From: Thalassospira lucentensis
GTDB lineage: Bacteria; Pseudomonadota; Alphaproteobacteria; Rhodospirillales; Thalassospiraceae
Assembly (NCBI RefSeq): GCF_011806425.1
Contig: NZ_JAATOV010000004.1
Coordinates: 248,001-312,000, forward strand
Direction of reading: 5' to 3'
Length of the DNA stretch: 64,000 nucleotides
Shown: one piece after another, positions 47,682 through 64,000 of the stretch
How positions within the stretch are numbered: the first letter of the stretch is position 1
Layout of the letters: every line of letters starts with the position of its first letter
Translations under genes and position numbers: made by a program
The notes under the pieces: generated by a model
Seen by the model: the letters and a program-made list of their open reading frames with translations, nothing else
The model's database searches: none
Told to the model about the DNA's origin: nothing

Positions 47682-47698
47682 TTTCCCGCTCCGTATAT

Positions 47699-48891: not shown

Positions 48892-49410
48892 TCAGCTTGG
48901 GTCTCGATAATCGGCAAGACGTTCCTGACAATGGCGCATTGTACGTGCAAGCTGTTTTTCCACGGCACTAACCGAAATACCGTACTTTTTCGCAAGCTTG
49001 GCGTTCGAAATGCCCTCCACACGATGCAGGATAAACATTTCCCGTGCCTTTGGCGTCAGTTCCTGCAAGGCGCGATCAAGGGCGGATAAAGTTTGTCGGG
49101 CCTGCGCATGATCTTGTGGCGACATCGTTTCACACGGCCAAAGTTGTTCGGGCAAAAGACCGTCCATGACCCGGCTGCGCCCCGCATTACTGCGATAGTG
49201 ATCCACCACCGCATTGCGGACAGACGCATAAAGCATCTTGGTATTGGCATCATCTGGCCCGCGGTCGCCCGCCTGCATCAGTCGGGCGTAAACATCTTGC
49301 ACTAGCTCAGCAGCGATTTCGCGATCACGTATGCGTCGGAACACCATCGACAAAAGTTGCCTTCGATGATCTTCGAACAGTTTGGCCAGTGTTTGCTGCC
49401 AGAACTTCAT
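48892..49410 (-). CDS. fecI: FecI-type ECF sigma factor
   Basis: This is an extracytoplasmic-function sigma factor of the iron-starvation (FecI) group. The region 2 segment ELVQDVYARLMQA precedes NTKMLYASVRNAVVDHYRS. Region 4 reads LQELTPKAREMFILHRVEGISNAKLA with the helix-turn-helix KKYGISVSAVEKQLARTMRHC. ATG at 49410 gives 173 residues; the frame extends upstream to 49515 but that stretch lacks sigma similarity and contains a cysteine-rich translation typical of leader DNA. A Fur box lies about 100 bases upstream. Confidence 0.94.
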   Translation of the reverse strand: MKFWQQTLAKLFEDHRRQLLSMVFRRIRDREIAAELVQDVYARLMQAGDRGPDDANTKMLYASVRNAVVDHYRSNAGRSRVMDGLLPEQLWPCETMSPQDHAQARQTLSALDRALQELTPKAREMFILHRVEGISNAKLAKKYGISVSAVEKQLARTMRHCQERLADYRDPS

Positions 49411-49510
49411 ACGTGATTTAAACCGATATTTATGAGGCGCTTTGCGCTGTCGCGACGCGGCGAAACCGCAAAGACACTTGTTGCATGGCTGTATCGCGCA
49501 GCAAGCTAGC

Positions 49511-49529
49511 AACAATGATAATCATTTTC
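49511..49529. promoter_or_regulatory. Fur box upstream of fecI
   Basis: AACAATGATAATCATTTTC matches the 19-base Fur consensus GATAATGATAATCATTATC at 16 positions, with a perfect ATGATAATCAT core. It lies about 100 bases upstream of the sigma-factor ATG, so iron-dependent repression is expected. Confidence 0.85.
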
Positions 49530-49635: not shown

Positions 49636-49659
49636 GCGCAGACTATCGTTAGTCTGCGC
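49636..49659 (-). terminator. Strong hairpin at IclR 3' end
   Basis: GCGCAGACTA and TAGTCTGCGC pair around a TCGT loop and overlap the last codons of the IclR gene. There is no T run, so it could protect the transcript end or act with Rho and is not a classical terminator. Confidence 0.5.
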
Positions 49660-50443
49660 CTGCGCCTGCGCCAAGACGCCGGGATATGTCCGCACATAGC
49701 GCAACCAACCGTTCGCGGCACTCCTCAACCGACACAATAGACGTTCCCGAAAGACGTTGAATGAACGGGATTGTCAGTGCCGCGACCACCTTGCCGGAAA
49801 AATCAAAAATCGGGGCCGACAGGTTCCAAACACCGGCGATGGTCAATGACGTCGCCTCGCAATAGCCCGCGTCATGAACTGCGGGCAAATCGGCGATAAA
49901 TTCCTGATAGGTTTCATCCGATACATCACCAGCCCCCTTCAGCATCGCATCACGGGCATCGGGATCCATCCACGCCGCAAGCACACGACCAGATGCCGTG
50001 TCATAGATATTGATCTGCGCGCCAAGGCGCACCGCGGTGATGTTGTTGTCCTGGCAGTCGACCTGCGCAATCACAAGAACCTTGCCCGAATGAATGATCG
50101 CAAGATGCATTGACTGGTTTACCTCGTCGGCAAGACGTTGCATTGCCTCGCCAGCGATTGATGTCAGTCGGCGAATTGGTGGATGACGATGGGCCACTTC
50201 AAACATCTTCGTAGTCAGATGATAGCGTTCGTCTTCTTCACGAAGTTCCACATAACCGCGCTGACACAACACCATCAGCATCCGGAAGATTTCTGACGTA
50301 TTGCGATTAAGCTGCTTGGCGATGGCAATCTGTGACAATCCATCTGCCTCTGAGGCAAGAAGCTCAAGAATATCAAGTCCCTTGGACAATGCCGGGGCAC
50401 GGTACTTTTCCTGATCCGTTTGGTCTTCTGCCTTGCCGCTCAT
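49649..50443 (-). CDS. IclR-family transcriptional regulator
   Basis: The N-terminal winged helix (ALSKGLDILELLASEADGLSQIAIAKQLNRNTSEIFRMLMVL) is followed by the IclR effector domain, with LADEVNQSMHLAIIHSGKVLVIAQ and LSAPIFDFSGKVVAALTI. Length is 264 residues; AGGACAT precedes the ATG. It is divergent from the solute-binding-like/CoA-transferase pair and lies at the edge of the sugar-acid operon, so it probably controls one or both. IclR regulators often respond to sugar acids or aromatic acids. The C-terminus ends in a GAGAG repeat from a short GCGCCT tandem repeat. Confidence 0.92.
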   Translation of the reverse strand: MSGKAEDQTDQEKYRAPALSKGLDILELLASEADGLSQIAIAKQLNRNTSEIFRMLMVLCQRGYVELREEDERYHLTTKMFEVAHRHPPIRRLTSIAGEAMQRLADEVNQSMHLAIIHSGKVLVIAQVDCQDNNITAVRLGAQINIYDTASGRVLAAWMDPDARDAMLKGAGDVSDETYQEFIADLPAVHDAGYCEATSLTIAGVWNLSAPIFDFSGKVVAALTIPFIQRLSGTSIVSVEECRERLVALCADISRRLGAGAGAD

Positions 50444-50622: not shown

Positions 50623-51762
50623 GTGGCCAAACAAAAACACCTCAAAGGCATGACCTGGTCCGATCCACGCGGCTATGATCCGCTGGTTGCGGCAAGCGTG
50701 GCGTTTAGTACTGACCATCCAGACGTCGACATTACGTGGGATAAACGATCGCTTCAGGAATTTGAAAGCACCCCGGTCGAAGACCTTGCTCGCCGCTATG
50801 ACCTGATCATCATTGATCACCCGCATGTGGGTGCAATAGTTGAAAAGAACTGCTTGCTTCCACTGGATCAGTTTGCGGCCCAAGATGCCCTTACGCGACT
50901 ATCTGCCGAAACCATTGGCAAAAGCTATCAAAGCTATTTCTATCAGGGGCATCAATGGGCATTGCCGGTCGATGCGGCGTGTCAGGTACAAGCCATCCGC
51001 CCTGATCTTTTGCCCGCCCCGGTCACACAATTTGAATATGTTCTGGGCGAAGCAAAGTATGGACGTGTTGTGTGGCCATTACGCGCCCCACATATCCTGA
51101 TGTCGTTTTTCACCCTTATGGCCAATTGTGGTGCGCCCTTCCCGATCACGGCCCAAACACCCATAAATCAAAAGGCCGCGTTTGAGGTCATTGGTGCCAT
51201 GAAGGCCCTGTATGATCTGATTGATCCGACTTGCCTGGAAATGGATCCGATTGCCGCCCTTGATACGCTGTCGGAAGGCAACTGTTTCTCGTTATGTCCA
51301 TTTGTCTATCTCTACGCGCCTTATGGGCGGGCTGAATATCGCAAACACCGTGTTGCCTTTCATGACATGCCATCATTTGGTGCCTCTGGCCCATTGGGCT
51401 CGGCACTTGGCGGTACGGGACTGGCTGTTTCAGCCCACACCAGCTATCCCGACTTATGCGCGGAATTTGCCCTGTGGGTGGCATCGGCCGATATACAGCG
51501 TGGTCTGTACGCCAAACATAACGGCCAACCCGGAAACGCCGTCGCCTGGGGCGATCCATCCGTAAATCAGCCGGTTGGAAATGCGTACAACAATACCCGC
51601 ATGACCCACGAAGCTGCTTGGCTGCGTCCGCGTCACGCTGGGTACATGGGCTTTCAGGAACAGGGGTCAGAAATCCTTCTCGATACCATTAGGCGAAAAA
51701 CACATGTGGATACAGCCATCTCCACCCTTCAAAAATGTTTTGACGAAAGCTTCTCCCAATGA
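50623..51762 (+). CDS. Solute-binding-protein homologue lacking a signal peptide
   Basis: The product resembles family 1 extracellular sugar-binding proteins. It has two-lobe features such as YDLIIIDHPHVGAIVEKNCLLPLDQF, GHQWALPVDAACQVQAIRPDLL and LAVSAHTSYPDLCAEFALWVAS. It starts MAKQKHLKGMTWSDPRGYDP with no hydrophobic leader, so it should stay in the cytoplasm. GGGAGG nine bases before the GTG fixes this start, and no upstream in-frame leader exists. The stop overlaps the CoA-transferase start (ATGA). No transporter permease is adjacent on this strand. A cytoplasmic ligand-sensing or substrate-presenting role for the CoA-transferase is possible; none is established. Confidence 0.85.
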   Translation: MAKQKHLKGMTWSDPRGYDPLVAASVAFSTDHPDVDITWDKRSLQEFESTPVEDLARRYDLIIIDHPHVGAIVEKNCLLPLDQFAAQDALTRLSAETIGKSYQSYFYQGHQWALPVDAACQVQAIRPDLLPAPVTQFEYVLGEAKYGRVVWPLRAPHILMSFFTLMANCGAPFPITAQTPINQKAAFEVIGAMKALYDLIDPTCLEMDPIAALDTLSEGNCFSLCPFVYLYAPYGRAEYRKHRVAFHDMPSFGASGPLGSALGGTGLAVSAHTSYPDLCAEFALWVASADIQRGLYAKHNGQPGNAVAWGDPSVNQPVGNAYNNTRMTHEAAWLRPRHAGYMGFQEQGSEILLDTIRRKTHVDTAISTLQKCFDESFSQ

Positions 51763-52892
51763 CCGATTTATTGCCGCTTGATGGACTTAAGGTCCTCGAT
51801 TTCTCGCAGTTTCTGGCGGGTCCGTATTGCGCCTTAAAATTGGCGGACCTTGGCGCAGACGTGGTGAAGGTTGAGCGCGCCGGACTGGGGGATTTATCCC
51901 GCTACCTGTATCTGACAGACACCAAAATCGCTGGCGAAAGCACGATTTTTCACGCGATCAACCGCAACAAACGATCTGTTGCTGTCGATCTGAAATCTGA
52001 CGAAGACAAAGAAAAACTGCGCAAACTGGTCGCCGAGGCCGACGTCATTTTGCAAAACTTTCGCCCCGGAGTAATGGAACGGCTTGGTTTCGGATATGAC
52101 GCCGTCAAAAAGATCAACCCAACCGTGGTTTATGGAACAGTCACAGGCTATGGGTCGGATGGGCCGTGGGTCGATCTGCCGGGGCAGGATTTGCTCGCAC
52201 AGGCACGATCAGGGGTGATGTGGCTATCCGGTGGGCAGGATCATGGTCCTGTGGCGATGGGTCTTCCCGTTGCCGATGTGCTTGCCGGATCGGCGCTGGC
52301 CCATGGGGTATTGGCCCTTCTGTATCGCCGGGCGACCAAAAACATTGGCGGATTTGTTGAAACATCCCTGATCGAAGTTCTGGCGGATTTGCAGTTTGAA
52401 TTGCTGACCACGTGGTTTAACGACGGCAACCGCACGCCGAAAAGATCAAAAAACAATCCAGCCCACGCATATCTTGCGGCACCCTATGGCGTTTATGAAA
52501 CATCAGATGGGTATATTGCCATTGCCATGGGTAAACTGCCCCTATTGGCAGAAATTACCGGTCTTTCTGCCGACATTTCCGAACTGGACGCGTTTACCAA
52601 GCGCGACGACATCAAAGCCGGCCTTGCCGCCAAATTAAAAATCCGCACCAGCGATGACTGGATGGAACAGTTTGTCAAAAATGACATCTGGGCCGCCCCG
52701 GTCATGGATTGGGATGGTGTCGTCAAAAGTGGCGTTTTGCAAACCCTTGATATGATCCAAGATATCCATCGCGGCGATGTGGACATGAAAACCACAAAGC
52801 TACCCATGCGCATTGATGGTATCCGCCCGTCTTCGACCCGCGCGGCCCCAGAACTGGGGGATGCCAATAGTTTGCTTGATACCGGTTGGTGA
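51759..52892 (+). CDS. Class III CoA-transferase (CaiB/BaiF family)
   Basis: This enzyme transfers CoA between organic acids, or activates a carboxylic acid as a CoA thioester. The N-terminal segment LDGLKVLDFSQFLAGPYC and VVKVERAGLGDLSRY are typical. The catalytic aspartate is D144 in LPGQDLLAQA, and GFVETSLIEVLADLQ and NPAHAYLAAPYGVYETSDGY follow in the large domain. Length, 377 residues, is at the short end of the family. It is coupled to the leaderless binding protein. Its acid substrate is probably a product of the neighbouring operon. Confidence 0.92.
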   Translation: MTDLLPLDGLKVLDFSQFLAGPYCALKLADLGADVVKVERAGLGDLSRYLYLTDTKIAGESTIFHAINRNKRSVAVDLKSDEDKEKLRKLVAEADVILQNFRPGVMERLGFGYDAVKKINPTVVYGTVTGYGSDGPWVDLPGQDLLAQARSGVMWLSGGQDHGPVAMGLPVADVLAGSALAHGVLALLYRRATKNIGGFVETSLIEVLADLQFELLTTWFNDGNRTPKRSKNNPAHAYLAAPYGVYETSDGYIAIAMGKLPLLAEITGLSADISELDAFTKRDDIKAGLAAKLKIRTSDDWMEQFVKNDIWAAPVMDWDGVVKSGVLQTLDMIQDIHRGDVDMKTTKLPMRIDGIRPSSTRAAPELGDANSLLDTGW

Positions 52893-52919
52893 AACCTATT
52901 TAGACACCACCCAAAAATC

Positions 52920-52954
52920 AAAAAGCGCGACACCAATTGGGCCGCGCTTTTTTC
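52920..52954. terminator. Terminator between convergent operons
   Basis: AAAAGCGCG pairs with CGCGCTTTT around an internal CCAATTGG dyad, with T and A runs on both sides. It ends the CoA-transferase transcript and the long minus-strand operon. Confidence 0.8.
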
Positions 52955-52980
52955 GTTTCTGTATGCTCAATCGCGTTGGA

Positions 52981-53820
52981 TTAGTCGTCTTTCACGCAGA
53001 CCTGACGCTGGGTACCGAGTTTGTCGATGCCAAGTTCAACAACGTCGCCTTCCTTAAGATAACGCGGCGGATTGAAACCAAGACCAACACCCGGGGGCGT
53101 ACCCGTCGAAATGATGTCGCCCGGATGCAGGGTAAAGAACTGCGACAGATAGGAAATCAGATGCGGCACACGATAAACCATTGTTGCAGTCGATCCGTCC
53201 TGAACGCGTTCACCGTTCACATCAAGCCACATGCCGAGTTTGTCAAAATCACCAACTTCATCAGGTGTCACCAACCACGGGCCGGTCGGGCCGAAATTGT
53301 CTGATGATTTGCCTTTGGACCACTGGCCCGCACGTTCGATCTGATACGCACGTTCGGACACGTCATTAATCAGGCAGAAACCGGCAACGTGATCCATGGC
53401 GTTTTCTTCGGAAACGTATTTAGCCGTTTTGCCAATGACAAAACCAAGCTCAACTTCCCAATCGGTTTTTTCCGAACCGCGCGGAATAATGATCGGATCA
53501 TTCGGACCACAAATCGCCGATGTATATTTGGCAAAAATAACCGGCTCTGGCGGAACTTCCATACCCGATTCAGCAGCGTGGTCGGCATAGTTCAGACCAA
53601 TACAAATGAACTTCCCGGTTTGACCAACGCATGCGCCAAGACGCGGATCACCATCCACAAGCGGCAGGGTTTCCGGATCAATGGATTTCAAGCTATCAAG
53701 GCGGGTCAGGATATCCCCGGCAATATCATCAACGTGCCCTGACAAATCGCGCAATTTACCATTGGCATCAACAAGGGCCGGCTTTTCTGAACCGCGTTCG
53801 CCATAACGTGCAAATTTCAT
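52981..53820 (-). CDS. FAH-family hydrolase, probable 2,4-diketo-3-deoxy-sugar-acid hydrolase
   Basis: This is a fumarylacetoacetate-hydrolase-fold enzyme of 279 residues. IGLNYADHAAESGMEVP, the metal-binding pair in DWEVELGFVIGK, and ISTGTPPGVGLGFNPPRYLKEGD are family signatures. Homologues next to a 2-keto-3-deoxy-sugar-acid dehydrogenase cleave the 2,4-diketo acid to pyruvate plus a hydroxy acid (lactate from fuconate or rhamnonate, glycolate from pentonates). AAAGGAA precedes the ATG. It is the last gene of the minus-strand operon, 30 bases after the SDR, which supports sequential reactions. Confidence 0.9.
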   Translation of the reverse strand: MKFARYGERGSEKPALVDANGKLRDLSGHVDDIAGDILTRLDSLKSIDPETLPLVDGDPRLGACVGQTGKFICIGLNYADHAAESGMEVPPEPVIFAKYTSAICGPNDPIIIPRGSEKTDWEVELGFVIGKTAKYVSEENAMDHVAGFCLINDVSERAYQIERAGQWSKGKSSDNFGPTGPWLVTPDEVGDFDKLGMWLDVNGERVQDGSTATMVYRVPHLISYLSQFFTLHPGDIISTGTPPGVGLGFNPPRYLKEGDVVELGIDKLGTQRQVCVKDD

Positions 53821-53850
53821 GTGACTTTTATTCCTTTGTTAAAATTACGA

Positions 53851-54588
53851 TCAAGCGGTCCAACCGCCATCAACAACATGAACAACCCCGGTGGTAAAGC
53901 CACTCTCGTCCGATGCGAGATAGGCAACCAAAGCTGCAATTTCATCAGGTTTGCCGATCCGGCCCATTGGCTGGCGTTCGGCAAAGGCTTTAAGGGCACC
54001 TTCATAATCCCCGGTCGCACGCAGGCGGTCATGAAGGCTTGGGCTATCAACGGTGCCTGGCGCAATGGCATTGCACCGGATGCCCTGTTTGACATGATCA
54101 TTTGCAATCGCCCGCGTCATACCGGCAACGGCCGCCTTTGACGCGGAATAAACCAAACGGTTTACCGGGCCTGTGACCGGCCCTGCGACGGATGACATGT
54201 TAATAATCGAACCGTGCCCCTTTTCTAGCATCCCCGGAAGAACCGCGCGGATCATCCGAAACTGTGATTTTGCATTAAGTTCAAATGCGAAGTCCCATTC
54301 TTCTTCTGTTGCTTCAAGGATCGTTCCATTGTGAACGATGCCTGCACAGTTAAACAACACATCAACCGTGCCGATTTCATTAACCAAGGCCGTGATTGCC
54401 GATTTGTCGGTAACATCAAGCTTCTTGGCCTCAATACCGTCAATCGCATCAAGCTCAGCCAATGCGGCTTCATTAACGTCAGTCGCGATGACCCGCCCGC
54501 CTTCTTTGGCAAGTCGTTCGGCCGATGCACGTCCGATGCCTTGCCCTGCTGCTGTGACCAAACACAGTTTTCCTTCAAGTCGCTTCAT
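53851..54588 (-). CDS. SDR dehydrogenase, probable 2-keto-3-deoxy-L-fuconate type
   Basis: This is a classical short-chain dehydrogenase (245 residues) with TAAGQGIG nucleotide motif, NCAG, and catalytic YSASK. GIRCNAIAPGTVDSPSLHDRL and FAERQPMGRIGKPDEIA closely resemble the BDH2/2-keto-3-deoxy-L-fuconate dehydrogenase group, which oxidises the C4 hydroxyl of a 2-keto-3-deoxy sugar acid. With the downstream FAH hydrolase this gives a diketo-acid cleavage route. GGAGGAACT precedes the ATG. Substrate stereochemistry is not determined. Confidence 0.92.
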   Translation of the reverse strand: MKRLEGKLCLVTAAGQGIGRASAERLAKEGGRVIATDVNEAALAELDAIDGIEAKKLDVTDKSAITALVNEIGTVDVLFNCAGIVHNGTILEATEEEWDFAFELNAKSQFRMIRAVLPGMLEKGHGSIINMSSVAGPVTGPVNRLVYSASKAAVAGMTRAIANDHVKQGIRCNAIAPGTVDSPSLHDRLRATGDYEGALKAFAERQPMGRIGKPDEIAALVAYLASDESGFTTGVVHVVDGGWTA

Positions 54589-54597
54589 AGTTCCTCC

Positions 54598-55800
54598 TTA
54601 AACAGCTGGCAGGCACGACGGCCCAATGGGTTCAAATGTTTTGTAGGTCAGAATGAATTCCCGATGGCCAAGCGCCTCGGACTTGGTTTCGGCCCCCTTG
54701 GCAACAGAAACCACCAAATCGCGAATTTCCTGTCCGACTTCATCAATCGTGCGTCGGCCTTCGATGATGTCGCCAGCATTAACGTCCATATCGCCCGAAA
54801 GCGCGCGGTACGTATCGGGATTGGCGCAAATTTTAATGACGGGCGATATCGCCGATCCGACAACAGATCCGCGCCCAGTGACAAACAAGGTCAGATGCGC
54901 GCCACTGGCGATCATTTCGACAATCTCAGCATTGTCGGAAATGTTGGGGAAGCCAAACCGCACTTCGCCATCGGGCACCACATCCATCAGATAAAGCCCC
55001 CCTTTTGGCGGTACATCACCCGGTTTGATCAGCCCGGAAATACGGCTATCACCTGATTTGACATAGGCGCCCAGGCTTTTTTCCTCGATCGTGGAAAGCC
55101 CGCCTGCCGCATTGCCAGCGGCAAATGATCCATAGCCAAGCGTATCGTAATAGCGTTCCGCCTTTTGCACCGCGGCGCGCAGTTCTTCGCCCAGTTCCGG
55201 GGTGACCGCACGTTCGGCCATGATGTCTTCGCAACTGATCATTTCGCCAGTTTCTTCAAATATACAGGCAGCCCCCTCGCCGATCAGAAGATCAAAGGCC
55301 CTACCGGCGGCCGGGTTTCCCGAAATGCCCGACGTGCCGTCGGACCCACCGCAGATCGTGCCAATGACGAGCTCATGAACACCCATCGGGACACGATCAA
55401 CCTTGGCAACTTGATCAAGCGCGTTTTGAACCCAATCCCGGCCAGATTGTACCGTACTTGCCGTACCGCCCGATTTTTGGATCACCAAGGTTTCGACCGG
55501 ACGACCGGAATTTTTGACAGCGGTCGATACCCGTACCTTGTCGAAACTTTCACACCCAAGCGACACAAAAAGCACCGCCCCGACATTTGGGTGCGTGCAG
55601 AGTTGTTCCATCACGCGTGCGGCGTATTCATTGGGAAAACAGCCGGGAAAACCAATCAGTTGAACGTCTTCACCATCAAAACCGGCGACAATTTTTGACG
55701 CGACGAAATGCGCACATTCCACAAGATAAGCCACAACAACCGAGTTACGGATACCTTTGCGCCCATCAGAACGGAGGTAACCTGTGATTTCTTCTGTCAT
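54598..55800 (-). CDS. UxaA-family dehydratase, large subunit
   Basis: This is a 400-residue member of the altronate/galactarate dehydratase (UxaA) large-domain family. GYLRSDGRKGIRNSVVVAYLVECAH begins the domain, and GTICGGSDGTSGISGNPAAGRA and FEETGEMISCEDIMAERA hold conserved residues. Conserved cysteines, including in GFPGCFPNEYA, LGCESFDKV and GTICGG, could hold iron or form the active site. The family also contains (R)-sulfolactate sulfo-lyase large subunit SuyB, so sugar-acid dehydration and C-S cleavage are both possible. Its start overlaps the stop of the small subunit gene (ATGA). Confidence 0.88.
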   Translation of the reverse strand: MTEEITGYLRSDGRKGIRNSVVVAYLVECAHFVASKIVAGFDGEDVQLIGFPGCFPNEYAARVMEQLCTHPNVGAVLFVSLGCESFDKVRVSTAVKNSGRPVETLVIQKSGGTASTVQSGRDWVQNALDQVAKVDRVPMGVHELVIGTICGGSDGTSGISGNPAAGRAFDLLIGEGAACIFEETGEMISCEDIMAERAVTPELGEELRAAVQKAERYYDTLGYGSFAAGNAAGGLSTIEEKSLGAYVKSGDSRISGLIKPGDVPPKGGLYLMDVVPDGEVRFGFPNISDNAEIVEMIASGAHLTLFVTGRGSVVGSAISPVIKICANPDTYRALSGDMDVNAGDIIEGRRTIDEVGQEIRDLVVSVAKGAETKSEALGHREFILTYKTFEPIGPSCLPAV

Positions 55801-56111
55801 TTCGTTTCCCCCTGGTTAAGCCCGTTTGCGTCATCAAGCGCGTAAGTCGCCGTATAGGCCGACCGGATATTGTGAATATGAACATGTGCACCCGCTGGAA
55901 TGTCTTGGGTCGCGATCCCGATTGGCATGCCGTATTTCAAAATGCGTTCCCCCGCCGCGATATCGCGATAGGCGATCTTATGGGCAAGTGGGATTGGCTG
56001 CGTCAGGACAAAGGGACCACCTTCAAGCACCACCTTGGCACCTTCGGGTGCGGTGCTTCGCGCGACAAGGACATTGTCATTTGGATGCAAATGAAGAAAA
56101 GGTGCACTCAT
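55797..56111 (-). CDS. UxaA-family dehydratase, small (SAF-domain) subunit
   Basis: This 104-residue SAF-domain protein is the N-terminal module of UxaA-type enzymes as a separate subunit. [20 protein letters not shown] and [20 protein letters not shown] are typical, as is the [21 protein letters not shown] end, which carries histidines near the active site. A split small/large arrangement also occurs in SuyAB. Its start overlaps the MaoC stop by four bases, so translation is chained. Confidence 0.9.
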
Positions 56112-56554
56112 GGTTTCATCTCCACCATATAGATATGATCGGCAACCAGAGCGACTTCATCCTTCTGGTTTGTGACGGTCAAACGTTCTGTCACCCGGCC
56201 AAAGCCCGGACGCTTTTCCATCACTTCCTTTGCCGTAATTTCGACATCCGATTTGATCGTATCGCCAATAAAAACCGGCTTAATGAATCGTAGGCGGTCA
56301 TAGCCGTATGAAAAGGCCACCGGATTAATGACGGTGGCGGTCAAGCCAACCCCAATGGTGAACACCATCGTGCCATGGGCAATCCGCTGCCCAAATGGCA
56401 GGGTTTTGCAAAATTCCGCGTCCAGATGATGCGGAAAAAAATCGCCCGAATGTCCGGCGTGAACGACAAAATCGGTTTCAGTAATCGTACGCCCCACCGT
56501 CTGGCGATGTTCACCGATCTCGTAGTCCTCGTAATATTTGGTTTGCTCAAACAT
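56108..56554 (-). CDS. MaoC-family (hot-dog) hydratase/dehydratase
   Basis: This is a 148-residue single hot-dog protein. [21 protein letters not shown] is the usual start, and the catalytic hydratase-2 aspartate/histidine pair appears in [35 protein letters not shown] and [17 protein letters not shown] follow. Members act on enoyl-CoA or hydroxyacyl-CoA, so with the CoA-transferase gene it implies a CoA-thioester step not needed in known fucose pathways. ATG at 56554 gives a normal length; the open frame extends to 56779 through the overlapping Gfo gene. It overlaps that gene by eight bases. Confidence 0.88.
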
Positions 56555-57602
56555 CCGCTGCCTCCTTGATCGGGTGCATCGGCTTGGCGGAGCTTTGATA
56601 GGCGGCCTCAACCAACGCCATGGTGTGCCACGCGTCCTCAGCCGCCCCCTCAAGGTCGGCATCAAGACCGGCAGCAAATCTTTGCACTTGGGCAAAACGA
56701 CCGCGGAATGCGGCGATAAACCAGTTCCCGACAAGCGGCACCTGTCGCCATTCCCCATCGGTGTTGAGCCAAAGTTCATCCGGCTCGCCTTTGGGGTAAT
56801 CCAAATTCACCCCAAGTTTCAGATAAGCAGCCCCCTTGGTCCCGCAAATACGAAACTCGCAAGCCTGGAATTTGCGGCCAAATGCGTGGTTATGATTGAT
56901 CGATAAATTGCACCGAACGTCGTCGCCGTAATCAAGCATTATGGCACTGCGGGTATTCGACACCGTTGACGTGGGATGCCCGACCGTGCGCGCATGAACG
57001 CCTTTGGGATTGCCAAAAAGATCGCGAACGAAATCAAGGTAGTGGATCGAATGCAAAAGAATTTCGACCCGTGGCAGCTTCAACAAAAATTCCCAAAGAT
57101 GCCACGGCGTATCCAATGCAAGCCACGCATCAAAATCAACAAGATCACCCAAAATCCCCTGTGAAACGGCATCTTTAAGCGCAAGCGACATCGGCGCAAA
57201 ACGAAGCTGGAAATTCACTGCGGCCTTAAGCCCCTTGCGCCGGATCACCGAGATAATCCGGTCTGCCTCGGCCAAGTCGGAACCAAGCGGCTTTTGAATG
57301 ATCGCAATCGCACCATCAGGCAAAGCTTCAAGCAACTGGGCAATGGCCGTTGGCGGCACCGCAAGATCGTAAATCGTCCCGTCTTGGCCGGTTGCGTCTT
57401 CAAGCGTCTCAAACGCCTGCGTGCCCCAAGCGGTTGCAACCTTTTGCGCCTTGGCAAGATCGGGGTCATAAATCCCCGCCACCGGCACCCCCAAATCACG
57501 ATAAGCCGGAAGGTGCGCGTCCGTCACGATGGACCCCGCACCGAAAATCACAACTGGGGTTGGCGTTTCTGGCATCTCAATGGTTTGGCGCAACTCAGTC
57601 AT
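56547..57602 (-). CDS. Gfo/Idh/MocA-family oxidoreductase
   Basis: This is an NAD(P)-dependent sugar dehydrogenase family member of 351 residues. The N-terminal Rossmann fold begins [19 protein letters not shown]. The usual EKP catalytic-lysine motif reads QKP ([11 protein letters not shown]), and [14 protein letters not shown] is the substrate-side helix with conserved histidines. It may oxidise the free sugar to its lactone or act at another carbon. It is coupled at both ends (8-base overlaps with neighbours). Confidence 0.9.
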
Positions 57603-57924
57603 GGTGGAACACCTCGTTCATCTCAGCCCACCATTCGCCGTCACCGCGAGTTTCAAGCGGTCGCTGAAGCGGTTCACATACCGACCACCATCGTTGGGTT
57701 TCGGGGTCGGCAGCCATTTTCGCCATATCTGCCGCAAAATCATCGCCGACATATTCGAAATAGGCAAAAAGCAGGTTTTCCGGCTGTTTGAGGAAAATCG
57801 AATAATTGCGGATGTTGCAGTCCGATATCTTGGCCAAAACACCCGGCCATGCATCTGCGTGCAGGGTTTTGTATTGTGCAATCGCATCTTCGCCGATGCC
57901 AATCACTTGTCCATGCCTGACCAT
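57595..57924 (-). CDS. RhaM-type sugar mutarotase
   Basis: This is a 109-residue L-rhamnose mutarotase (YiiL/RhaM) family protein that interconverts anomers of a sugar. The catalytic histidine lies in TLHADAWPGVLAKI. NYSIFLKQPENLLFAYFEYVG and TQRWWSVCEPLQRP match the family core. Related proteins act on L-rhamnose or L-fucose, which supports a 6-deoxy or similar hexose as pathway substrate. The start overlaps the TAA stop of the enolase gene (TAATG). Confidence 0.9.
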   Translation of the reverse strand: MVRHGQVIGIGEDAIAQYKTLHADAWPGVLAKISDCNIRNYSIFLKQPENLLFAYFEYVGDDFAADMAKMAADPETQRWWSVCEPLQRPLETRGDGEWWAEMNEVFHHD

Positions 57925-59039
57925 TATGTGTCCTCCCTTATCTCAAACGAACTTCCCGAAACAGTCAGCGCTTTGAGTTTTTCGTGATCCCAATCAATGC
58001 CAAGTCCGGGGGTATCCGGCGCGATTGCGGTCCCCGCCTTACACGCCATCGGGGCTGCGATGTCTTCAAGTTGCGGGATATATTCAAGCCACGGTGCATT
58101 GGGCACGGCACACACCAAACTGACATGCAACTCCATCAGGAAATGCGGGCAGATTGCGATGTTATGCGCCTCCGCCAGATGGGCGACTTTTAGCCACGGC
58201 GTAATCCCGCCAACCCGCGCCACATCTGCCTGAACAATGGTGCACGCATCTGCTGCGATATAATCGGCAAACTGTCCCGGGCTATACAGGCTTTCACCCA
58301 CGGCCACAGGAACGCGCGAATGCGCCTGCAACCGCCGATGGCCTGCGATATCGTCCGATGGCAACGGTTCTTCGAACCACGCAATGTTTAGGCGTTCAAG
58401 CATCGGGACGCGCCTTTGTGCCTCGGCGGCGGTCATGGACTGATTGGCATCGGTCATGATTTCATAGTCATCGCCAAGGGCAGATCTCACCGCCTCAAGC
58501 CGTGCAACATCCCCGGAAACAGACGGCGTTCCGATTTTAACTTTTGACCCTAAAAACCCTTTGGCCTTGGCGTTTTGCGCGTCCTCGACCAACGCTTTTG
58601 GGGGTAAATGCAGCCACCCGCCTTCGGTGGTGTACATGGGAACGGTTTTCTTTGCCCCACCCGCCAACACATGAAGCGGAAGTCCCGTCTTTTGCCCGCG
58701 CATATCCCAAAGGGCGGTATCGATTGCCGCAAGCGCAAGCGACATAATCGGCCCCACGGCCGTGGCATGCGAACAAAACAAAAGATCGCGCCAGATTGCC
58801 TCAATCCGATCCGCGTCCTGCCCCATCAACCGTGGCAGCAACGTTTCGCGCAACAGCATCAAAATGGACGGGCCCCCATCGCCGATGGTGTAGCTATAGC
58901 CCATGCCGCCCGCGCCATCCGCATCGTGTAAAACAACAAAGATTGTTTCTTGCGACTTAAACGACTGGATCGCGTCGGTACGGACAACCTTGGGCGCAAG
59001 ATCGACCATAAACGCATTTGCACTGGTAATTCGTGCCAT
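57924..59039 (-). CDS. Enolase-superfamily sugar-acid dehydratase (mandelate racemase subgroup)
   Basis: This is a mandelate-racemase/muconate-lactonising-type enzyme of 371 residues. K166 and K168 (SKVKIG), the metal ligands D197 (TDANQS), E223 (FEEPL) and E249 (GESLY), and the D272/H299 dyad (CPHF) line up within two residues of mandelate racemase numbering. It should dehydrate an aldonic acid such as L-fuconate or L-rhamnonate to its 2-keto-3-deoxy acid. It is shorter than known L-fuconate dehydratases (about 430), so the substrate may differ. GTGAGG precedes the ATG at 59039; a GTG at 59051 is less likely. Confidence 0.92.
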   Translation of the reverse strand: MARITSANAFMVDLAPKVVRTDAIQSFKSQETIFVVLHDADGAGGMGYSYTIGDGGPSILMLLRETLLPRLMGQDADRIEAIWRDLLFCSHATAVGPIMSLALAAIDTALWDMRGQKTGLPLHVLAGGAKKTVPMYTTEGGWLHLPPKALVEDAQNAKAKGFLGSKVKIGTPSVSGDVARLEAVRSALGDDYEIMTDANQSMTAAEAQRRVPMLERLNIAWFEEPLPSDDIAGHRRLQAHSRVPVAVGESLYSPGQFADYIAADACTIVQADVARVGGITPWLKVAHLAEAHNIAICPHFLMELHVSLVCAVPNAPWLEYIPQLEDIAAPMACKAGTAIAPDTPGLGIDWDHEKLKALTVSGSSFEIREDT

Positions 59040-59047
59040 TTGCGGCC

Positions 59048-60133
59048 TCACTTTTTCTGGGTATCGCCAGTCTCGGCATCAAACAGATGGCATTTATCGA
59101 GCATGATCTGGAACGTCATGCGCTCGCCACGGTGTACCGGACGGGGATTAAGCATCTTGGCCTGAACTTCTGTCCCGGCCAAAACCGCAAACAACAGGGT
59201 TTCCGTGCCAAGTGGCTCTGTCAGGTCCACCGTCATTTCAACCTCGGCCATGTGCTCGCCACGTGGCAAAGCATGCCCCACCGGCATGATGTTATCGGCG
59301 CGCACCCCGAATGTAATCGCCTGCCCTTCATCGGTGAAATAGCCCGGCGGCACGGGCAAACGGGTGCCATCGGCAAATTCGATCTGACCGTCTTTGACGA
59401 CACCATCAAGCAAGTTCATCGGCGGTGACCCGATAAAGGTCGCAACAAAGGTGTTGATCGGATTTTCAAACACCTCAAGCGGCGTTCCGACTTGCTCTAT
59501 ATGGCCATCGCGCATGATGACAATCCGATCAGCAAGGGTCATGGCCTCGATCTGATCATGGGTGACATAAATGATGGTCGAGCCAAGCTTTTGATGCAGC
59601 TTTTTGATTTCAACCCGCATCTGGGTACGCAATTTCGCATCAAGGTTCGATAGCGGTTCATCGAACAAAAATACTTCCGGATCGCGCACAATCGCACGGC
59701 CCATGGCAACGCGTTGGCGTTGCCCACCCGAAAGGGCGCCGGGCTTACGATCCAAAAGGGGTGTCAGCGACAAAATATCGGCAGCTTCATTCACGGCCTT
59801 GTCGATGTCAGCCTGTGAATGTTTGGCAATATGAAGCGAAAACCCAAGGTTTTCGCGCACCGTCATATGCGGATAAAGCGCATAGTTCTGAAACACCATA
59901 GAGATGTTGCGATCACGTGGCGGCAAATCGTTGACCACGCGCCCGCCGATTTGCACGTCGCCGCCCGAAATTGCTTCGAGGCCTGCGACCATACGCAGCG
60001 TTGTCGATTTCCCGCACCCTGACGGGCCAACCAGCACGACAAACTCACCATCGGCGATATCCAGATTGATCGCATGGACGACCTCAAGCGGGCCGTATTT
60101 CTTGACCACATTGCGAAGGTGGACCTGAGCCAT
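59048..60133 (-). CDS. Sugar ABC transporter ATPase (UgpC/MsmK type)
   Basis: This is the ATPase of a CUT1-type carbohydrate importer. Walker A GPSGCGKST, signature LSGGQRQRVAMGRAI, Walker B VFLFDEPLSNLD and the switch histidine in YVTHDQIEAM are present. The C-terminal TOBE/OB domain includes FIGSPPMNLLDG. At 361 residues it matches UgpC. It sits downstream of the two permeases (5-base gap) and just before the dehydratase. Confidence 0.95.
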   Translation of the reverse strand: MAQVHLRNVVKKYGPLEVVHAINLDIADGEFVVLVGPSGCGKSTTLRMVAGLEAISGGDVQIGGRVVNDLPPRDRNISMVFQNYALYPHMTVRENLGFSLHIAKHSQADIDKAVNEAADILSLTPLLDRKPGALSGGQRQRVAMGRAIVRDPEVFLFDEPLSNLDAKLRTQMRVEIKKLHQKLGSTIIYVTHDQIEAMTLADRIVIMRDGHIEQVGTPLEVFENPINTFVATFIGSPPMNLLDGVVKDGQIEFADGTRLPVPPGYFTDEGQAITFGVRADNIMPVGHALPRGEHMAEVEMTVDLTEPLGTETLLFAVLAGTEVQAKMLNPRPVHRGERMTFQIMLDKCHLFDAETGDTQKK

Positions 60134-60137
60134 TTTA

Positions 60138-61004
60138 TTATCCTTTCACGCCGCCAAAAGTAAGGCCGGCAATGAGGTGTTTCTGCACGAGGAACGTCAA
60201 AATAAGCGCGGGGATAATCATCAACACCGCAAGCGCACACATCCCCCCCCAATTGAGGGTAAATTCAGACGTAAAATCGAGAAGCCCGACCGGCATGGTC
60301 TTTGACGTGGTGGACCGCGTGAGCTGAGACGCCAACGCATATTCATTCCACGATGTCAGAAAGGCAAAGATACCCGCCGATGCGATGCCAGACCGCGCCA
60401 CGGGAAACTCAACACGCCAAAATGCCTGCCAGCGTGTGCAGCCATCAATTTCGGCGGCTTCGGCCAGTTCAGGCGGCACCTGACGGAAGAAACCGTCGAT
60501 CAGCCAAATCGTGAACGGCACGTTTAAGGCCACATAGGCAATAATCATCCCAAAATGCGTATCGATAATCCCGACACGGGCAAACAGGATGAATAACGGC
60601 AAGGATAACGCCACCCCCGGCACAGCACGCGTCACCATCAGGCCAACAAAAATACCGCCCTTAAATTTGAATTTATAACGTGCAAAGGCATACCCACCGG
60701 CCATCCCGATCAAAATCGCAATAACGGTTGAGGTCACCGAAATCACCAATGAGTTTGCGAAATAGGTCAGGACAGGCACCCCGCCCTCGCCGATCCCGCC
60801 GAACATGGCGCGGTAATGATCGAAATTCAGCTCGTTAGGGATCCAGACTGGTGGTTTCGCCATGATTTCCACCGTCGGGCGGAAAGAGTTCAAAACGATC
60901 CATAAGCCCGGCACACACAGCACCATCATGGCAAAAAACAAGCCAAGAGAATGGGCAACTTTGAGCATCTGACGGCGAAGATTATGATTTGAATTGGTCG
61001 CCAT
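60138..61004 (-). CDS. Sugar ABC transporter permease (MalG type)
   Basis: This is a six-helix CUT1 permease of 288 residues. The EAA coupling loop reads ELAEAAEIDGCTRWQAFWRVEFP. NSFRPTVEIMAKPPVWIP near the N-terminus is the usual first periplasmic loop of MalG-like subunits. It pairs with the MalF-type permease encoded three bases upstream. Confidence 0.95.
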   Translation of the reverse strand: MATNSNHNLRRQMLKVAHSLGLFFAMMVLCVPGLWIVLNSFRPTVEIMAKPPVWIPNELNFDHYRAMFGGIGEGGVPVLTYFANSLVISVTSTVIAILIGMAGGYAFARYKFKFKGGIFVGLMVTRAVPGVALSLPLFILFARVGIIDTHFGMIIAYVALNVPFTIWLIDGFFRQVPPELAEAAEIDGCTRWQAFWRVEFPVARSGIASAGIFAFLTSWNEYALASQLTRSTTSKTMPVGLLDFTSEFTLNWGGMCALAVLMIIPALILTFLVQKHLIAGLTFGGVKG

Positions 61005-61007
61005 GCG

Positions 61008-61904
61008 TTACATCCCCATCCCGAGTTCTTGGCGAGATTTGGTCAGTTTCTTAAAGAAATAGACGGTAAAGAAAATCGCGAGGAAGATAGAGATATAGCC
61101 CATCGCATTGGCATACCCCATGCGCGCATCCACATAGCCCGTCCGCCCAATCAGCGTCCAAAGAAGCTCTGTCCGGCGTGCTGGCCCACCATTGGTCATG
61201 ATCTGAACGATGTCATAGGCACGTGCCACATCAAGCGACCGGATCGCCATCGCGATATAGATAAAGGGCATCAAAAACGGCAAGGTGACATAACGGAACG
61301 ACTGCAAAGCCGTGCAACCGTCAACCTTTGCTGCCTCAAGCGGATCACGCGGGATCGCGTACAGCCCTGCTAGAATGAGAATTCCAAACACCGATGTCGA
61401 TGTCCAAACCTCTGCAAAGATGATTGAAAACATCGCAAGGTTACCGTCAACCAACCATGGAATGGCGGTATCGGTAATGCCAAGTGACTGCAGTGCGTTG
61501 TTCACCAGTCCCACATTATCATTAAAGATAAACTTGAACTGAAAACCGACCAGGATCGGCGAAAACATCATGGGAAACATCATCATCGTGCGCAAAAGAC
61601 GCTGACCACGGGTGACCTTTGACACCATGATCGCAATGCCAAGCCCCAGCAACATTTCAAGGTTAAGCGCAACCGTCAGCAAAAGAACCGTGCGCCCAAA
61701 GGCCGCCCAAAACTTGGCATCGGTGATGGCTTTTTCGTAATTGAACAACCCGACCCAGTTAAAAATACTGTCTGGCCGCGTCAGTCGGTAGGACGTGAAA
61801 CTTGAATAAAGTGACAGAACAAGCGGGATCAGCACGACGGCCGATAAAATGATGATGGCTGGTAAAAGCAGAACCAACCACTGAGGGAGCTTCAAGCGCT
61901 TCAT
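61008..61904 (-). CDS. Sugar ABC transporter permease (MalF type)
   Basis: This is a CUT1 permease of 299 residues with six helices. The first is LVLLLPAIIILSAVVLIPLVLSLYSSF, and the EAA loop reads PLEAAKVDGCTALQSFRYVTLP. I chose ATG at 61904; the open frame runs to 62012, but that stretch lacks membrane sequence. A strong hairpin lies between the binding protein gene and this one. Confidence 0.94.
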   Translation of the reverse strand: MKRLKLPQWLVLLLPAIIILSAVVLIPLVLSLYSSFTSYRLTRPDSIFNWVGLFNYEKAITDAKFWAAFGRTVLLLTVALNLEMLLGLGIAIMVSKVTRGQRLLRTMMMFPMMFSPILVGFQFKFIFNDNVGLVNNALQSLGITDTAIPWLVDGNLAMFSIIFAEVWTSTSVFGILILAGLYAIPRDPLEAAKVDGCTALQSFRYVTLPFLMPFIYIAMAIRSLDVARAYDIVQIMTNGGPARRTELLWTLIGRTGYVDARMGYANAMGYISIFLAIFFTVYFFKKLTKSRQELGMGM

Positions 61905-62001
61905 CGGGATGTCCCATAAGTCGGCACGGATGGCTTCGTGCGTTTGGGTCTGAGGATGGTCGAAAGACGGATGGCAGATTGCAGACGGCAGATGGAAAAT
62001 T

Positions 62002-62029
62002 GGGCGGCGCACTTAACGCTGCGCCGCCC
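62002..62029 (-). terminator. Hairpin between binding-protein and permease genes
   Basis: GGGCGGCGCA pairs perfectly with TGCGCCGCCC around an 8-base loop, 13 bases after the binding-protein stop. With no T run it may stabilise the binding-protein message or attenuate downstream expression, giving excess binding protein over permease. Confidence 0.7.
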
Positions 62030-62041
62030 AACCGATCCGGC

Positions 62042-63367
62042 TTAGTAAACGCCTTCTTCTTGCATCAACTCATCAACTGCTTCGGACGCATCAGCCAGCG
62101 CCTCGTCCACGGTCTTGTCCCCAACAATCGCCGCCTGAAGTTCCGGATAAATCAAGTTGGTCGATTCAATCCAAAGGGCAGTCGGCGGAACGGCAAATGC
62201 GGTTGCCGCAGTTTCCTTAAAGGCGGCCAAAACTTCGCTGCGATACGGATCGTCTTTGGCCTGTTCGGAAACATAATCCCAAACAGCTGTGCGTGACGGC
62301 AACGGCCCGGCAGCACTTTCAAGTTTCTGGCTGTCTTCGTTGGTCAGGAACTCAACCAATGACGCCGCGGCTTCTTTGTTTTCACAATCGTCAGTGACGG
62401 AAAATCCGTGGAAACCCGACCAACCGGTGCGCACACCAGCCGATCCTTTGGGTGCGGGCGCAACGCCAACATTCCCGGCAACTTTGGACGAGGACGGATC
62501 ATTAAAGAACGCCGCCCAGCCCGGCCAATCAAGGTTAAGCGCAATCGTTCCCGAGGCAAATCCGTTGCCCAAATCGTCCCACAGATAGTTGGTTGTACCC
62601 GCCGGAACAGCTCCCGCCTTATACAAATCAACAAACCACTGCAGGGCACGTTTGCCTTCTTCGGAATCAAATGCCGGCGAAAAATCATCGTTAAACAGCT
62701 TACCGCCTTCGGCAACGACCATCTCGTAGTAACGCCCAACGATGGCTTCGTCTTTACCGGCATATTGCGTGCCATAGAAATTCGGCGGATCGGCAAAGAA
62801 AATAGCCTGATCTTTTACCTGCGCCCAGGTTTCGGGCACGGCAAGTTTATAGCCATATTCCTCTTCAAACGCCTTGGCGCGCGCCGCATCGTCATAAAGG
62901 TCTTTTTGGTAATACAGTGCCGACACATCAAACTGTGCGCGCGGCAACATGACCAGTTCGCCATCAAACGTCGCGGCTTTGATATTGGCCGGGACAAATT
63001 CGGCAACCACGTCTTTACTGATCAGGTCAGTCAGATCGGTATAAAGGCTGGAATACTGAGACGCGAAGGACGAATGGTTCGACCCAACGCACCAATCGGT
63101 TGTCCCTGCGGCGATATCGGATTTGAACTCTTTATCCAGCTCGAAATGGTTTTTCTTGGAAATAATCTCGACTTTGGCACCTGTTGCCGCTTCCCATTCA
63201 GGGATGCGCGCATAAAGAGCCTCATATTGCTGACCACCGATAAGTTTGGCTTCGATGGTGACACCATCAAATTCGCCGGCTTGTGCGTTGCCGGTTTGGG
63301 CAACAAAGGCAGTCGCCGCAAAGGCGGCAAGCACGGCGCAGGATGCACCGCTCAAATACTTGTTCAT
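62042..63367 (-). CDS. Sugar ABC transporter periplasmic binding protein
   Basis: This is a family 1 extracellular solute-binding protein of 441 residues and the first gene of the operon. A signal peptide (SGASCAVLAAFAATAFVAQTG) precedes the mature start near GEFDGVTIEAKLIGG. YLWDDLGNGFASGTIALNLDWPGW and WSGFHGFSVTDDCENKEAAASL are characteristic segments. Two cysteines may form a disulfide. GGGAGGATAAA precedes the ATG at 63367; the frame extends to 63448 without a ribosome binding site. Confidence 0.95.
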   Translation of the reverse strand: MNKYLSGASCAVLAAFAATAFVAQTGNAQAGEFDGVTIEAKLIGGQQYEALYARIPEWEAATGAKVEIISKKNHFELDKEFKSDIAAGTTDWCVGSNHSSFASQYSSLYTDLTDLISKDVVAEFVPANIKAATFDGELVMLPRAQFDVSALYYQKDLYDDAARAKAFEEEYGYKLAVPETWAQVKDQAIFFADPPNFYGTQYAGKDEAIVGRYYEMVVAEGGKLFNDDFSPAFDSEEGKRALQWFVDLYKAGAVPAGTTNYLWDDLGNGFASGTIALNLDWPGWAAFFNDPSSSKVAGNVGVAPAPKGSAGVRTGWSGFHGFSVTDDCENKEAAASLVEFLTNEDSQKLESAAGPLPSRTAVWDYVSEQAKDDPYRSEVLAAFKETAATAFAVPPTALWIESTNLIYPELQAAIVGDKTVDEALADASEAVDELMQEEGVY

Positions 63368-63460
63368 TTTATCCTCCCTAATGGATCGGCCTCTCGACCG
63401 GCTGATGATCCTGCTGTCTTTTGATGCAGCTTTCATATTCGGAATCATCTTTTATATTTA

Positions 63461-63487
63461 AACTTGACTTGATTGGAGAGTCAAGTT
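63461..63487. promoter_or_regulatory. Candidate operator, 9-base inverted repeat
   Basis: AACTTGACT-TGATTGGAG-AGTCAAGTT is a perfect inverted repeat in the divergent gap between the sugar operon (minus) and the amidohydrolase gene (plus), about 95 bases before the binding-protein ATG. It is a likely site for the pathway regulator. Confidence 0.65.
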
Positions 63488-63598
63488 GAACTCCCCAAAG
63501 AATTCACCCTCTGCGCGAAAAAAGTTACCCTTACGCAAGCGTGTCAGATAACCACTGTCAAAAGCGCGGGAAACCGGGCGAAAAAGGAAGAAAGCATC

Positions 63599-64000
63599 AT
63601 GTTCATCGATACCCATCTTCACCTCGTTGCACGTGACCGCATTTCCTATCCGTGGCTAAAAGACGTGCCGCAACTCGATCAAGACTGGACCTATGACGCC
63701 TATGAAAAGACGGCCAAACGCATTGGCATTGATCGGGTTTTACACATGGAAGTCGATTGCGCCCCCAATTGCATCCAAACCGAAAATGCCTTTGTTGCGG
63801 AATTGATGGCACGGCCCGGAAGTCTTGTTTGCGGTGCCATTTCGTCTGCCCGACCGGAATCGGCTGGCTTTGACGCGTTTCTTGATGAACTCGACCCAAA
63901 GGTAATTAAAGGCATTCGCCGCGTCCTGCATGTGGTGCCCGATGACGTGTCGCAAAGCGATACCTTTCGCGCGAACGTGAAGCGTCTTGGCGACAAGGGC
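63599..64000 (+). CDS. Amidohydrolase_2 family sugar lactonase (partial, runs off the window)
   Basis: An ATG with AAGGAAG upstream opens a frame of 134 codons that is still open at the window end. The product begins MFIDTHLHL, holding the HxH metal motif (H6, H8) of amidohydrolase family 2. GIRRVLHVVPDDVSQSDTFRANVKRLGDKG-type sequence matches the L-fucono-1,5-lactonase/COG3618 group. It would open a sugar lactone to the aldonic acid consumed by the dehydratase. It is divergent from the operon and shares the candidate operator. The C-terminal half, with remaining active-site residues, is outside the window. Confidence 0.88.
   Translation, partial: MFIDTHLHLVARDRISYPWLKDVPQLDQDWTYDAYEKTAKRIGIDRVLHMEVDCAPNCIQTENAFVAELMARPGSLVCGAISSARPESAGFDAFLDELDPKVIKGIRRVLHVVPDDVSQSDTFRANVKRLGDKG

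Follow-up and report, generated by a model that had tools for sequence, protein, structure and literature searches.

The question raised by this locus is why an operon that resembles a non-phosphorylative route for a deoxy sugar should also carry genes of coenzyme A (CoA) chemistry. It lies within a 64,000-nucleotide stretch of a Thalassospira lucentensis contig (NZ_JAATOV010000004.1), here called the window, which is part of a 4.5-Mb genome whose closest relatives by operon similarity are Thalassospira species. The original prediction, made from the sequence alone, had described a diketo route of the fucose type together with components which such a route does not need, namely a second dehydratase (the UxaA pair), a MaoC hydratase and a CoA-transferase. 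According to our analysis, the UxaA pair is not superfluous but very probably is the operon's two-subunit L-fuconate dehydratase, predicted to fill the slot of FucD, and the dehydratase-like enzyme that the described pathway (route 3) leaves unexplained is the MR/MLE enolase. Route 3 explains neither this enolase nor MaoC, the CoA-transferase CaiB and the binding-protein homologue SBP8, and the last three form, with a Gfo/Idh/MocA dehydrogenase (Gfo), a conserved module travelling together. We give an even chance to the reading in which the locus is a route-3 pathway, fed by an ATP-binding cassette (ABC) importer and acting on L-fucose or a close 6-deoxy-L-galactose-type sugar, joined to a CoA-cycling sugar-acid dehydratase module. 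The features are listed below (position in the window, strand, description and basis).

62042..63367, minus: SBP1, periplasmic sugar-binding protein with signal peptide (Pfam SBP_bac_1; N-terminus)
61008..61904, minus: ABC permease (Pfam; start candidates compared, 61904 preferred over 62012)
60138..61004, minus: ABC permease (Pfam BPD_transp_1)
59048..60133, minus: ABC ATPase, MalK/UgpC type (Pfam)
57924..59051, start possibly 59039, minus: MR/MLE enolase-superfamily enzyme, talarate/galactarate dehydratase- or anhydrogalactonate cycloisomerase-like
57595..57924, minus: RhaM-family mutarotase, FucM-like (Pfam rhaM 2e-31)
56547..57602, minus: Gfo/Idh/MocA dehydrogenase, probable sugar 1-dehydrogenase, FucA-equivalent (Pfam; near MaoC1)
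56108..56554, minus: MaoC1, hot-dog hydratase, catalytic Asp38/His43 (Pfam MaoC 7e-23; PDB 4ffu 237 bits)
55797..56111, minus: UxaA-family small (SAF) subunit of the same predicted enzyme as the large one (Pfam SAF; overlap with large subunit)
54598..55800, minus: UxaA/GarD-family large subunit, predicted L-fuconate dehydratase, FucC-equivalent (Pfam GD_AH_C 5e-78; FucD swap)
53851..54588, minus: short-chain dehydrogenase/reductase (SDR), L-2-keto-3-deoxyfuconate 4-dehydrogenase (FucF, type 1; best PDB matches and R-T-R-R signature)
52981..53820, minus: FAH-family hydrolase, FucG-like, for 2,4-diketo-3-deoxy sugar acids (Pfam FAA_hydrolase 5e-72)
63599..64000, continuing to L002:1429, plus: amidohydrolase lactonase (COG3618-type), FucB-like (Pfam Amidohydro_2 5e-49)
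50623..51762, plus: SBP8, maltose-binding-protein fold, presumed cytosolic partner of CaiB (Pfam SBP_bac_8)
51759..52892, plus: CaiB, family III CoA-transferase (Pfam CoA_transf_3 1e-96)
49649..50443, minus: IclR-family regulator (Pfam HTH_IclR, IclR_C), in relatives conserved beside SBP8/CaiB or SBP1

Gene arrangement and conservation

The families of the operon were all found by highly significant Pfam matches (SBP_bac_1, BPD_transp_1, MR/MLE, SAF and SDR among others), which confirms the gene families that had been named. On the minus strand, the order from 63367 to 52981 is SBP1, two permeases, ATPase, enolase, RhaM, Gfo, MaoC1, UxaA-small, UxaA-large, SDR and FAH. The recomputed overlaps are 4 bp for ATPase/enolase, 1 bp for enolase/RhaM, 8 bp for both RhaM/Gfo and Gfo/MaoC, and 4 bp for both MaoC/UxaA-small and UxaA-small/large, followed by gaps of 9 bp before the SDR and 30 bp before FAH. 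The earlier description of genes chained by overlaps therefore holds from the ATPase through UxaA-large (1–8 bp), but not for the CoA-transferase: SBP8 and CaiB, with a 4-bp overlap, occupy the plus strand (50623-52892), where CaiB is convergent with FAH and outside the chain, and the IclR gene is divergent from SBP8. Similarly, the lactonase that had been counted in the operon is present, but it is divergent (plus strand, from 63599) and exits the window, being completed in the adjoining stretch L002. The start of MaoC is at 56554, a longer open reading frame from 56779 being spurious according to a start check and orthologue alignments.

The same arrangement was found again in tens of alphaproteobacterial genomes, in which genes were called by similarity searches and a simple open reading frame caller, and its conservation is far beyond chance. 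The operon is nonetheless patchy in its distribution, the UxaA large subunit being present in 8 of the 28 congeners and in 15 of the 387 sampled alphaproteobacteria (E < 1e-90).

The core route and its dehydratase

In the proposed core route, the RhaM/FucM mutarotase would be followed by the Gfo 1-dehydrogenase, the amidohydrolase lactonase and the UxaA-family L-fuconate dehydratase, after which the L-2-keto-3-deoxyfuconate 4-dehydrogenase (L-KDFDH, the SDR) and the FAH diketo hydrolase would lead to pyruvate and L-lactate; the substrate and the Gfo step are what we infer here. The best PDB matches of the SDR are 8XWK, 8Y4J and 8Y11 (302 bits), which are structures of the L-KDFDH of Herbaspirillum huttiense (PMC11199699). 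In that enzyme the substrate carboxylate is bound by Arg148, Thr183, Arg192 and Arg214, and the type-1 signature consists of these Arg-Thr-Arg-Arg ligands and a C-terminal Trp around the active site (PMC11199699). The window SDR carries this signature (R144, T179, R188, R205 and W243), and the four ligands plus neighbouring Phe, Gln and Trp residues are kept in it and in 69 of the 73 collected hits. The described L-fucose mutarotase is presumably a RhaM homologue. Mutarotation of L-fucose is a described step of route 3 (PMC11199699), into which the RhaM-family protein of the window fits. An independent locus, L163, contains orthologues of the window FAH (60%), SDR (58%), RhaM (58%) and enolase (61%). 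It also encodes FucD, an alpha-L-fucosidase (Pfam 2.9e-84), a fuconolactonase-like protein and, instead of Gfo, an aldo/keto reductase, an exchange which suggests that Gfo is the sugar 1-dehydrogenase. The fucose-type diketo pathway that had been predicted is supported by the SDR signature, by the context of L163 and by the exchange of the UxaA pair for FucD.

This exchange is seen in sister operons of Shinella, Sinorhizobium meliloti, Roseibium and Nitratireductor, in which FucD (575 bits against the L-fuconate dehydratase of X. campestris) stands in for the UxaA pair, while the operons are otherwise alike (ABC genes, enolase, RhaM, Gfo, MaoC, SDR, CaiB and SBP8, with FAH in all except the Shinella locus). 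None of the 58 UxaA loci having the SDR plus FAH or enolase has FucD, and a single odd locus (L110) has both. At the genome level (18 MaoC1-bearing relatives and the window genome, n = 19), 12 have UxaA only, 2 have FucD only, 2 have both in separate places and 3 have neither. The family also offers a precedent, as a UxaA/GarD-family enzyme dehydrates D-arabinonate and acts weakly on L-fuconate (Watanabe et al. 2019; PMC6336799), and a heteromeric L-fuconate dehydratase was inferred from gene context in Paraburkholderia mimosarum (PMC6336799). Together, the swap and this precedent indicate that the dehydratase first considered as extra is the core one. Predictions of fucose use by marine bacteria are affected by this, since the locus lends support to a two-subunit UxaA enzyme as a widespread alternative form of L-fuconate dehydratase. 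Three near-complete genomes (G535 of Qingshengfaniella, G472 and G567; loci L218, L221 and L222) have MaoC1 and CaiB (or SBP8) but lack both UxaA and FucD, G535 and G472 also keeping the ABC genes, the enolase and Gfo. Both dehydratases are therefore dispensable, as one would expect if the enolase or the CoA module is able to replace them.

The other substrates suggested earlier fare less well. The sulfo-sugar reading, in which the UxaA pair would be a SuyAB sulfo-lyase, is ruled out by the FucD swap, and the operon contains no sulfonate genes. A uronate or aldarate is not favoured, since the SDR and the mutarotase point to fucose, although the enolase is talarate/galactarate-like. This enolase reaches about 215 bits each against 3,6-anhydro-L-galactonate cycloisomerase and talarate/galactarate dehydratase, has intact KxK, metal-ligand and His motifs (alignment inspected by eye), and is kept even beside FucD (L163 and L164).

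Two variants of the core cluster were also observed. Loci L056, L057 and L060 have a minimal RhaM-UxaA-small-UxaA-large-SDR-FAH cluster, with no enolase, Gfo, MaoC, CaiB or ABC genes nearby. In L083, L087, L112 and L116 (about 8700-9700), an RraA-like protein (HMG-aldolase family) is encoded between RhaM and the UxaA pair, in the position of the window's Gfo and MaoC, sometimes with a second enolase alongside.

The CoA module and SBP8

The comparison of gene neighbourhoods proposed with the original prediction finds MaoC, Gfo, CaiB and SBP8 recurring together, including in unlinked copies, and MaoC and the CoA-transferase, which the described route indeed does not need, co-occur with it far beyond chance. 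SBP8 (>310 bits) is present in 15 of the 16 MaoC1-positive Rhodobacteraceae genomes versus none of 20 MaoC1-negative ones, the latter being the first listed and not a designed sample (Fisher 2.9e-9, uncorrected for relatedness). Gfo is found near MaoC1 in 16/16 MaoC1 loci, every one of which also has CaiB or SBP8, the missing partner usually being lost to the end of a stretch. In 69 of 78 cases SBP8 and CaiB are direct neighbours (50 in one gene order and 19 in the other), for the most part with a 4-bp overlap; the 9 non-adjacent cases comprise 4 at a stretch end, 1 with a crotonase gene in between and 4 distant SBP8 homologues. Amongst the 387 sampled genomes, all five that are SBP8-positive (>300 bits) have the enolase (p = 1.6e-7; 3.4e-6 with one congener left out), and the two genes are unlinked in 2 of them. 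In two genomes, G396 (L187 versus L035) and G406 (L186 versus L162), the module is encoded away from the fucose operon or the enolase, and it was also seen unlinked and with other sugar systems; a family search around G396 gave one genome with MaoC1. In the compact operons L186 and L219, which run in the order lactonase, RhaM, Gfo, (MaoC2), CaiB, SBP8, MaoC1, this succession places the module directly after aldonate production. Absence of UxaA, MaoC and the CoA-transferase from homologous clusters, or their belonging to a separate, characterised pathway, had been named as evidence against their joint action; UxaA can indeed be absent and the module can be separate (L187, L219), but no characterised pathway for the module was found. 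Full-text searches of open-access papers gave no description of CaiB, MaoC and a binding protein in sugar operons, and the module, although widely conserved, is apparently undescribed.

The catalytic residues of the module enzymes are conserved. The catalytic Asp of CaiB (Asp144) is present in 71/71 sequences, and the hydratase motif of MaoC1 is intact, with D38 and H43 five residues apart. The best NCBIfam match of CaiB is of the succinyl-CoA:mesaconate CoA-transferase type, far below the cut-off, and RipB/Ich and beta-methylmalyl-CoA dehydratase are weak matches of MaoC. In many relatives a second hot-dog protein, MaoC2 (L112:401-982; copies in L213-L228), lies beside SBP8/CaiB; it keeps the Asp and has Val for the catalytic His, the raw counts of 8 Val among MaoC1 rows and 11 His among MaoC2 rows being read as best-hit mis-assignment between the paralogues. 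MaoC2 may be a non-catalytic partner of MaoC1, judging from these residues. In the window genome its best match is MaoC1 itself (44%), and no true orthologue was found there.

SBP8, the key third partner of CaiB and MaoC, had not been singled out in the original prediction. Its AlphaFold model (predicted local distance difference test 93, predicted template-modelling score 0.91) has a bilobal fold of the maltose-binding protein (MBP) type, with Foldseek template-modelling scores of 0.81-0.83 to maltose- and trehalose-binding proteins. Unlike SBP1, which has a normal signal peptide, SBP8 is without an export signal: the first strand of the model starts at residue 5, and complete orthologue N-termini open directly at the fold (LRGMTWSDPRGYDP...), which very probably makes it an MBP-fold protein staying in the cytosol. 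In Rufibacter (Bacteroidota), the order is SBP8-CaiB-CaiB-SBP'-Gfo-MaoC-RhaT with no ABC permease nearby, and SBP8 is thus not encoded with an ABC transporter there. Alongside Gfo/MaoC, Rufibacter (L155:15541-16788) and L187 (L187:6822-8120) also have the gene of a second binding-protein-like protein (SBP_bac_1) that shows no obvious signal peptide; L187, a stand-alone module, has a sulfatase gene next to it. Distant SBP8 homologues in L188, L190 and L191 are near SDR and enolase or FAH genes, with sulfatase-like genes near L190 and L191.

For carnitine, the transferase CaiB puts CoA on the hydroxy acid, the hydratase CaiD removes water and the transferase passes the CoA on. By analogy with this cycle, from which we infer every chemical step of the module, CaiB with SBP8 would load CoA onto the aldonate that Gfo and the lactonase produce, MaoC would take off the 3-OH of the aldonyl-CoA, and the CoA would be handed to the next substrate. 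The module would then be a CoA-cycling sugar-acid dehydratase with a recognition subunit derived from a binding protein, for a substrate poorly handled by the UxaA enzyme. In CaiB-SBP8 operons of Sinorhizobium (plasmid pB) and Variovorax, which also encode another Gfo, a TIM-barrel isomerase and a DUF4432 protein, as well as in those of Azospirillum, the hydratase is a crotonase instead of MaoC, a replacement which is expected for chemistry of the CaiB/CaiD kind. A more general proposal, which we hold tentatively and regard as possible rather than probable, is that a cytosolic, transporter-derived binding protein serves as substrate-recognition subunit of a family III CoA-transferase, and that sugar acids are dehydrated in CoA-ester form by this pair and a hydratase, whose fold (MaoC for 3R, crotonase for 3S) would depend on the configuration at C3. 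We assign the R configuration to the 3-OH of L-fuconate, in agreement with an R-specific MaoC hydratase, and 3S acids would then fall to the crotonase modules. The acid-sugar dehydratases known to us all act on free acids. If true, the CoA-ester route would be a new way of sugar-acid breakdown, spread over marine and soil bacteria including the Sinorhizobium pSymB megaplasmid, and it would give a function to orphan cytosolic binding proteins that annotation pipelines name transporter subunits.

Several points weigh against the combined reading of a fucose route joined to such a module. The UxaA or FucD enzyme of the core would already dehydrate fuconate, which makes a second dehydration system look redundant, so that either its substrate (an epimer, or a methylated or acylated sugar acid) or its product would have to differ. 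The operon has no thioesterase or CoA-lyase, and no biochemical or mutant data on the module were found. FAH reaches 412 bits against the NCBIfam 2,4-didehydro-3-deoxy-L-rhamnonate hydrolase, for an equivalog cut-off of 500, and the lactonase 80 bits against the L-fucono-1,5-lactonase of the same Amidohydro_2 family, for a cut-off of 400. The core occurs without the module at L056, L057, L060, L163 and L164 (as loci, not whole genomes), and SBP8-like proteins of 36-38% identity occur without adjacent CaiB (L188, L190, L191), which means that SBP8 may have a separate function. Finally, the S. meliloti pSymB operon is presumably an L-fucose operon according to Fitness Browser data, but a full-text search of open-access papers gave none that confirms this and no direct literature on its genes SMb21103-21113, and this species has another fucose-annotated cluster (SMc02773-5).

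With regard to regulation, a perfect 9-bp inverted repeat (AACTTGACT-n9-AGTCAAGTT) at 63461..63487, in the divergent promoter of SBP1 and the lactonase, is an operator candidate. Of 7 other Thalassospira loci, 5 keep both arms, as does one rhodobacteral locus, and a single arm is kept in the rest of those checked. Several loci have an AT-rich AAATATAAAA-like element, related to the repeat, at a constant distance upstream of SBP8. As its significance is not the same from locus to locus, it is only suggestive of an operator shared by the fucose and SBP8 operons; co-regulation of the two is plausible on these motifs, and the pathway is probably IclR-controlled. Next to the IclR gene, at 45243-49515, are a TonB-dependent receptor, a FecR-like regulator and an extracytoplasmic function sigma factor (FecIRA-type uptake). 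Just past the window, L002:1520-12179 encodes two SDRs, a PF04198 sugar-binding regulator, a CUT1-type ABC importer, a Zn-alcohol dehydrogenase, a HAD phosphatase and an FGGY kinase, and is probably a polyol operon.

Alternative readings and comparison with known systems

The CoA module could instead work on a substituent or derivative, CaiB and MaoC converting a modified aldonate or its acyl group before the fucose route, the natural substrate being a 6-deoxy sugar that bears a methyl, acyl or other modification, such as 2-O-methyl-L-fucose. The module accompanies fucose genes, yet there are core clusters lacking it (L056, L163, L164); in Rufibacter its surroundings are a polysaccharide locus that includes SusC/D-type genes and those of a sialate O-acetylesterase and an acetylxylan esterase; and the stand-alone module L187 has its adjoining sulfatase. 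The window operon, however, is without an O-demethylase, an esterase or an ether-cleaving enzyme, and the modification itself is a guess, so that we consider this unlikely, though worth keeping in view. We see no better prospects for a sugar other than L-fucose, which would enter at 2-keto-3-deoxy-L-galacto-type intermediates (L-galactose, D-arabinose or 3,6-anhydro-L-galactose) with the enolase as first-line dehydratase or cycloisomerase. The equal closeness of the enolase to its two reference families and the three genomes keeping the module without UxaA or FucD are in agreement with such a sugar, but the alpha-L-fucosidase beside the enolase, RhaM, SDR, FAH and FucD genes in L163, the type-1 signature of the window SDR and the retention of the same enolase in soil rhizobia, where agar sugars are unlikely, all argue against it.

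Small carboxylic acids are common substrates of family III CoA-transferases, and the module could for this reason dispose of L-lactate or pyruvate, as products of the route, or balance acyl-CoA pools instead of acting on a sugar acid. This is very improbable, as L-lactate offers no 3-OH to a MaoC hydratase and the companions of the module are a mutarotase, a sugar dehydrogenase and a lactonase (L186, L219) as well as a sugar-binding-protein fold, lactate genes not being among them. That MaoC, CaiB and SBP8 are unrelated chance neighbours, as the opposite strand of CaiB and SBP8 in the window might suggest, has a next to negligible probability and is in effect refuted by the co-occurrence, which includes unlinked copies (p about 1e-6 to 1e-9, uncorrected for relatedness) and several independent rearrangements.

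The preferred reading, a route-3 fucose pathway with a CoA-cycling module, can be compared with three known systems. The CaiB and MaoC of the window resemble enzymes of the itaconate/mesaconate modules, which combine a CoA-transferase, a MaoC-type hydratase and a CoA-lyase, but every score is far below the cut-offs, and a carboxylic-acid pathway of this type was rejected, as the operon has no CoA-lyase gene. The route-3 L-fucose pathway of Herbaspirillum huttiense and Paraburkholderia (FucM, FucA, FucB, FucC, FucF, FucG; PMC11199699, PMC6336799) has predicted counterparts in the window for its mutarotase, 1-dehydrogenase, lactonase, dehydratase and FAH-family hydrolase, and shares with it the type-1 L-KDFDH. 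The window differs from it by its Gfo-type dehydrogenase, its distant lactonase and its two-subunit UxaA dehydratase, and by the additional MR/MLE enolase and the MaoC/CaiB/SBP8 module. For the latter, the closest parallel in kind is the carnitine pair CaiB/CaiD, where a family III CoA-transferase is likewise paired with an enoyl-CoA hydratase, CaiD being a crotonase as is the hydratase of some SBP8 operons; the fucose operon of the window differs by its sugar context, its MaoC fold and its MBP-fold partner, and the CoA chemistry proposed for it is suggested by the pairing of the genes.

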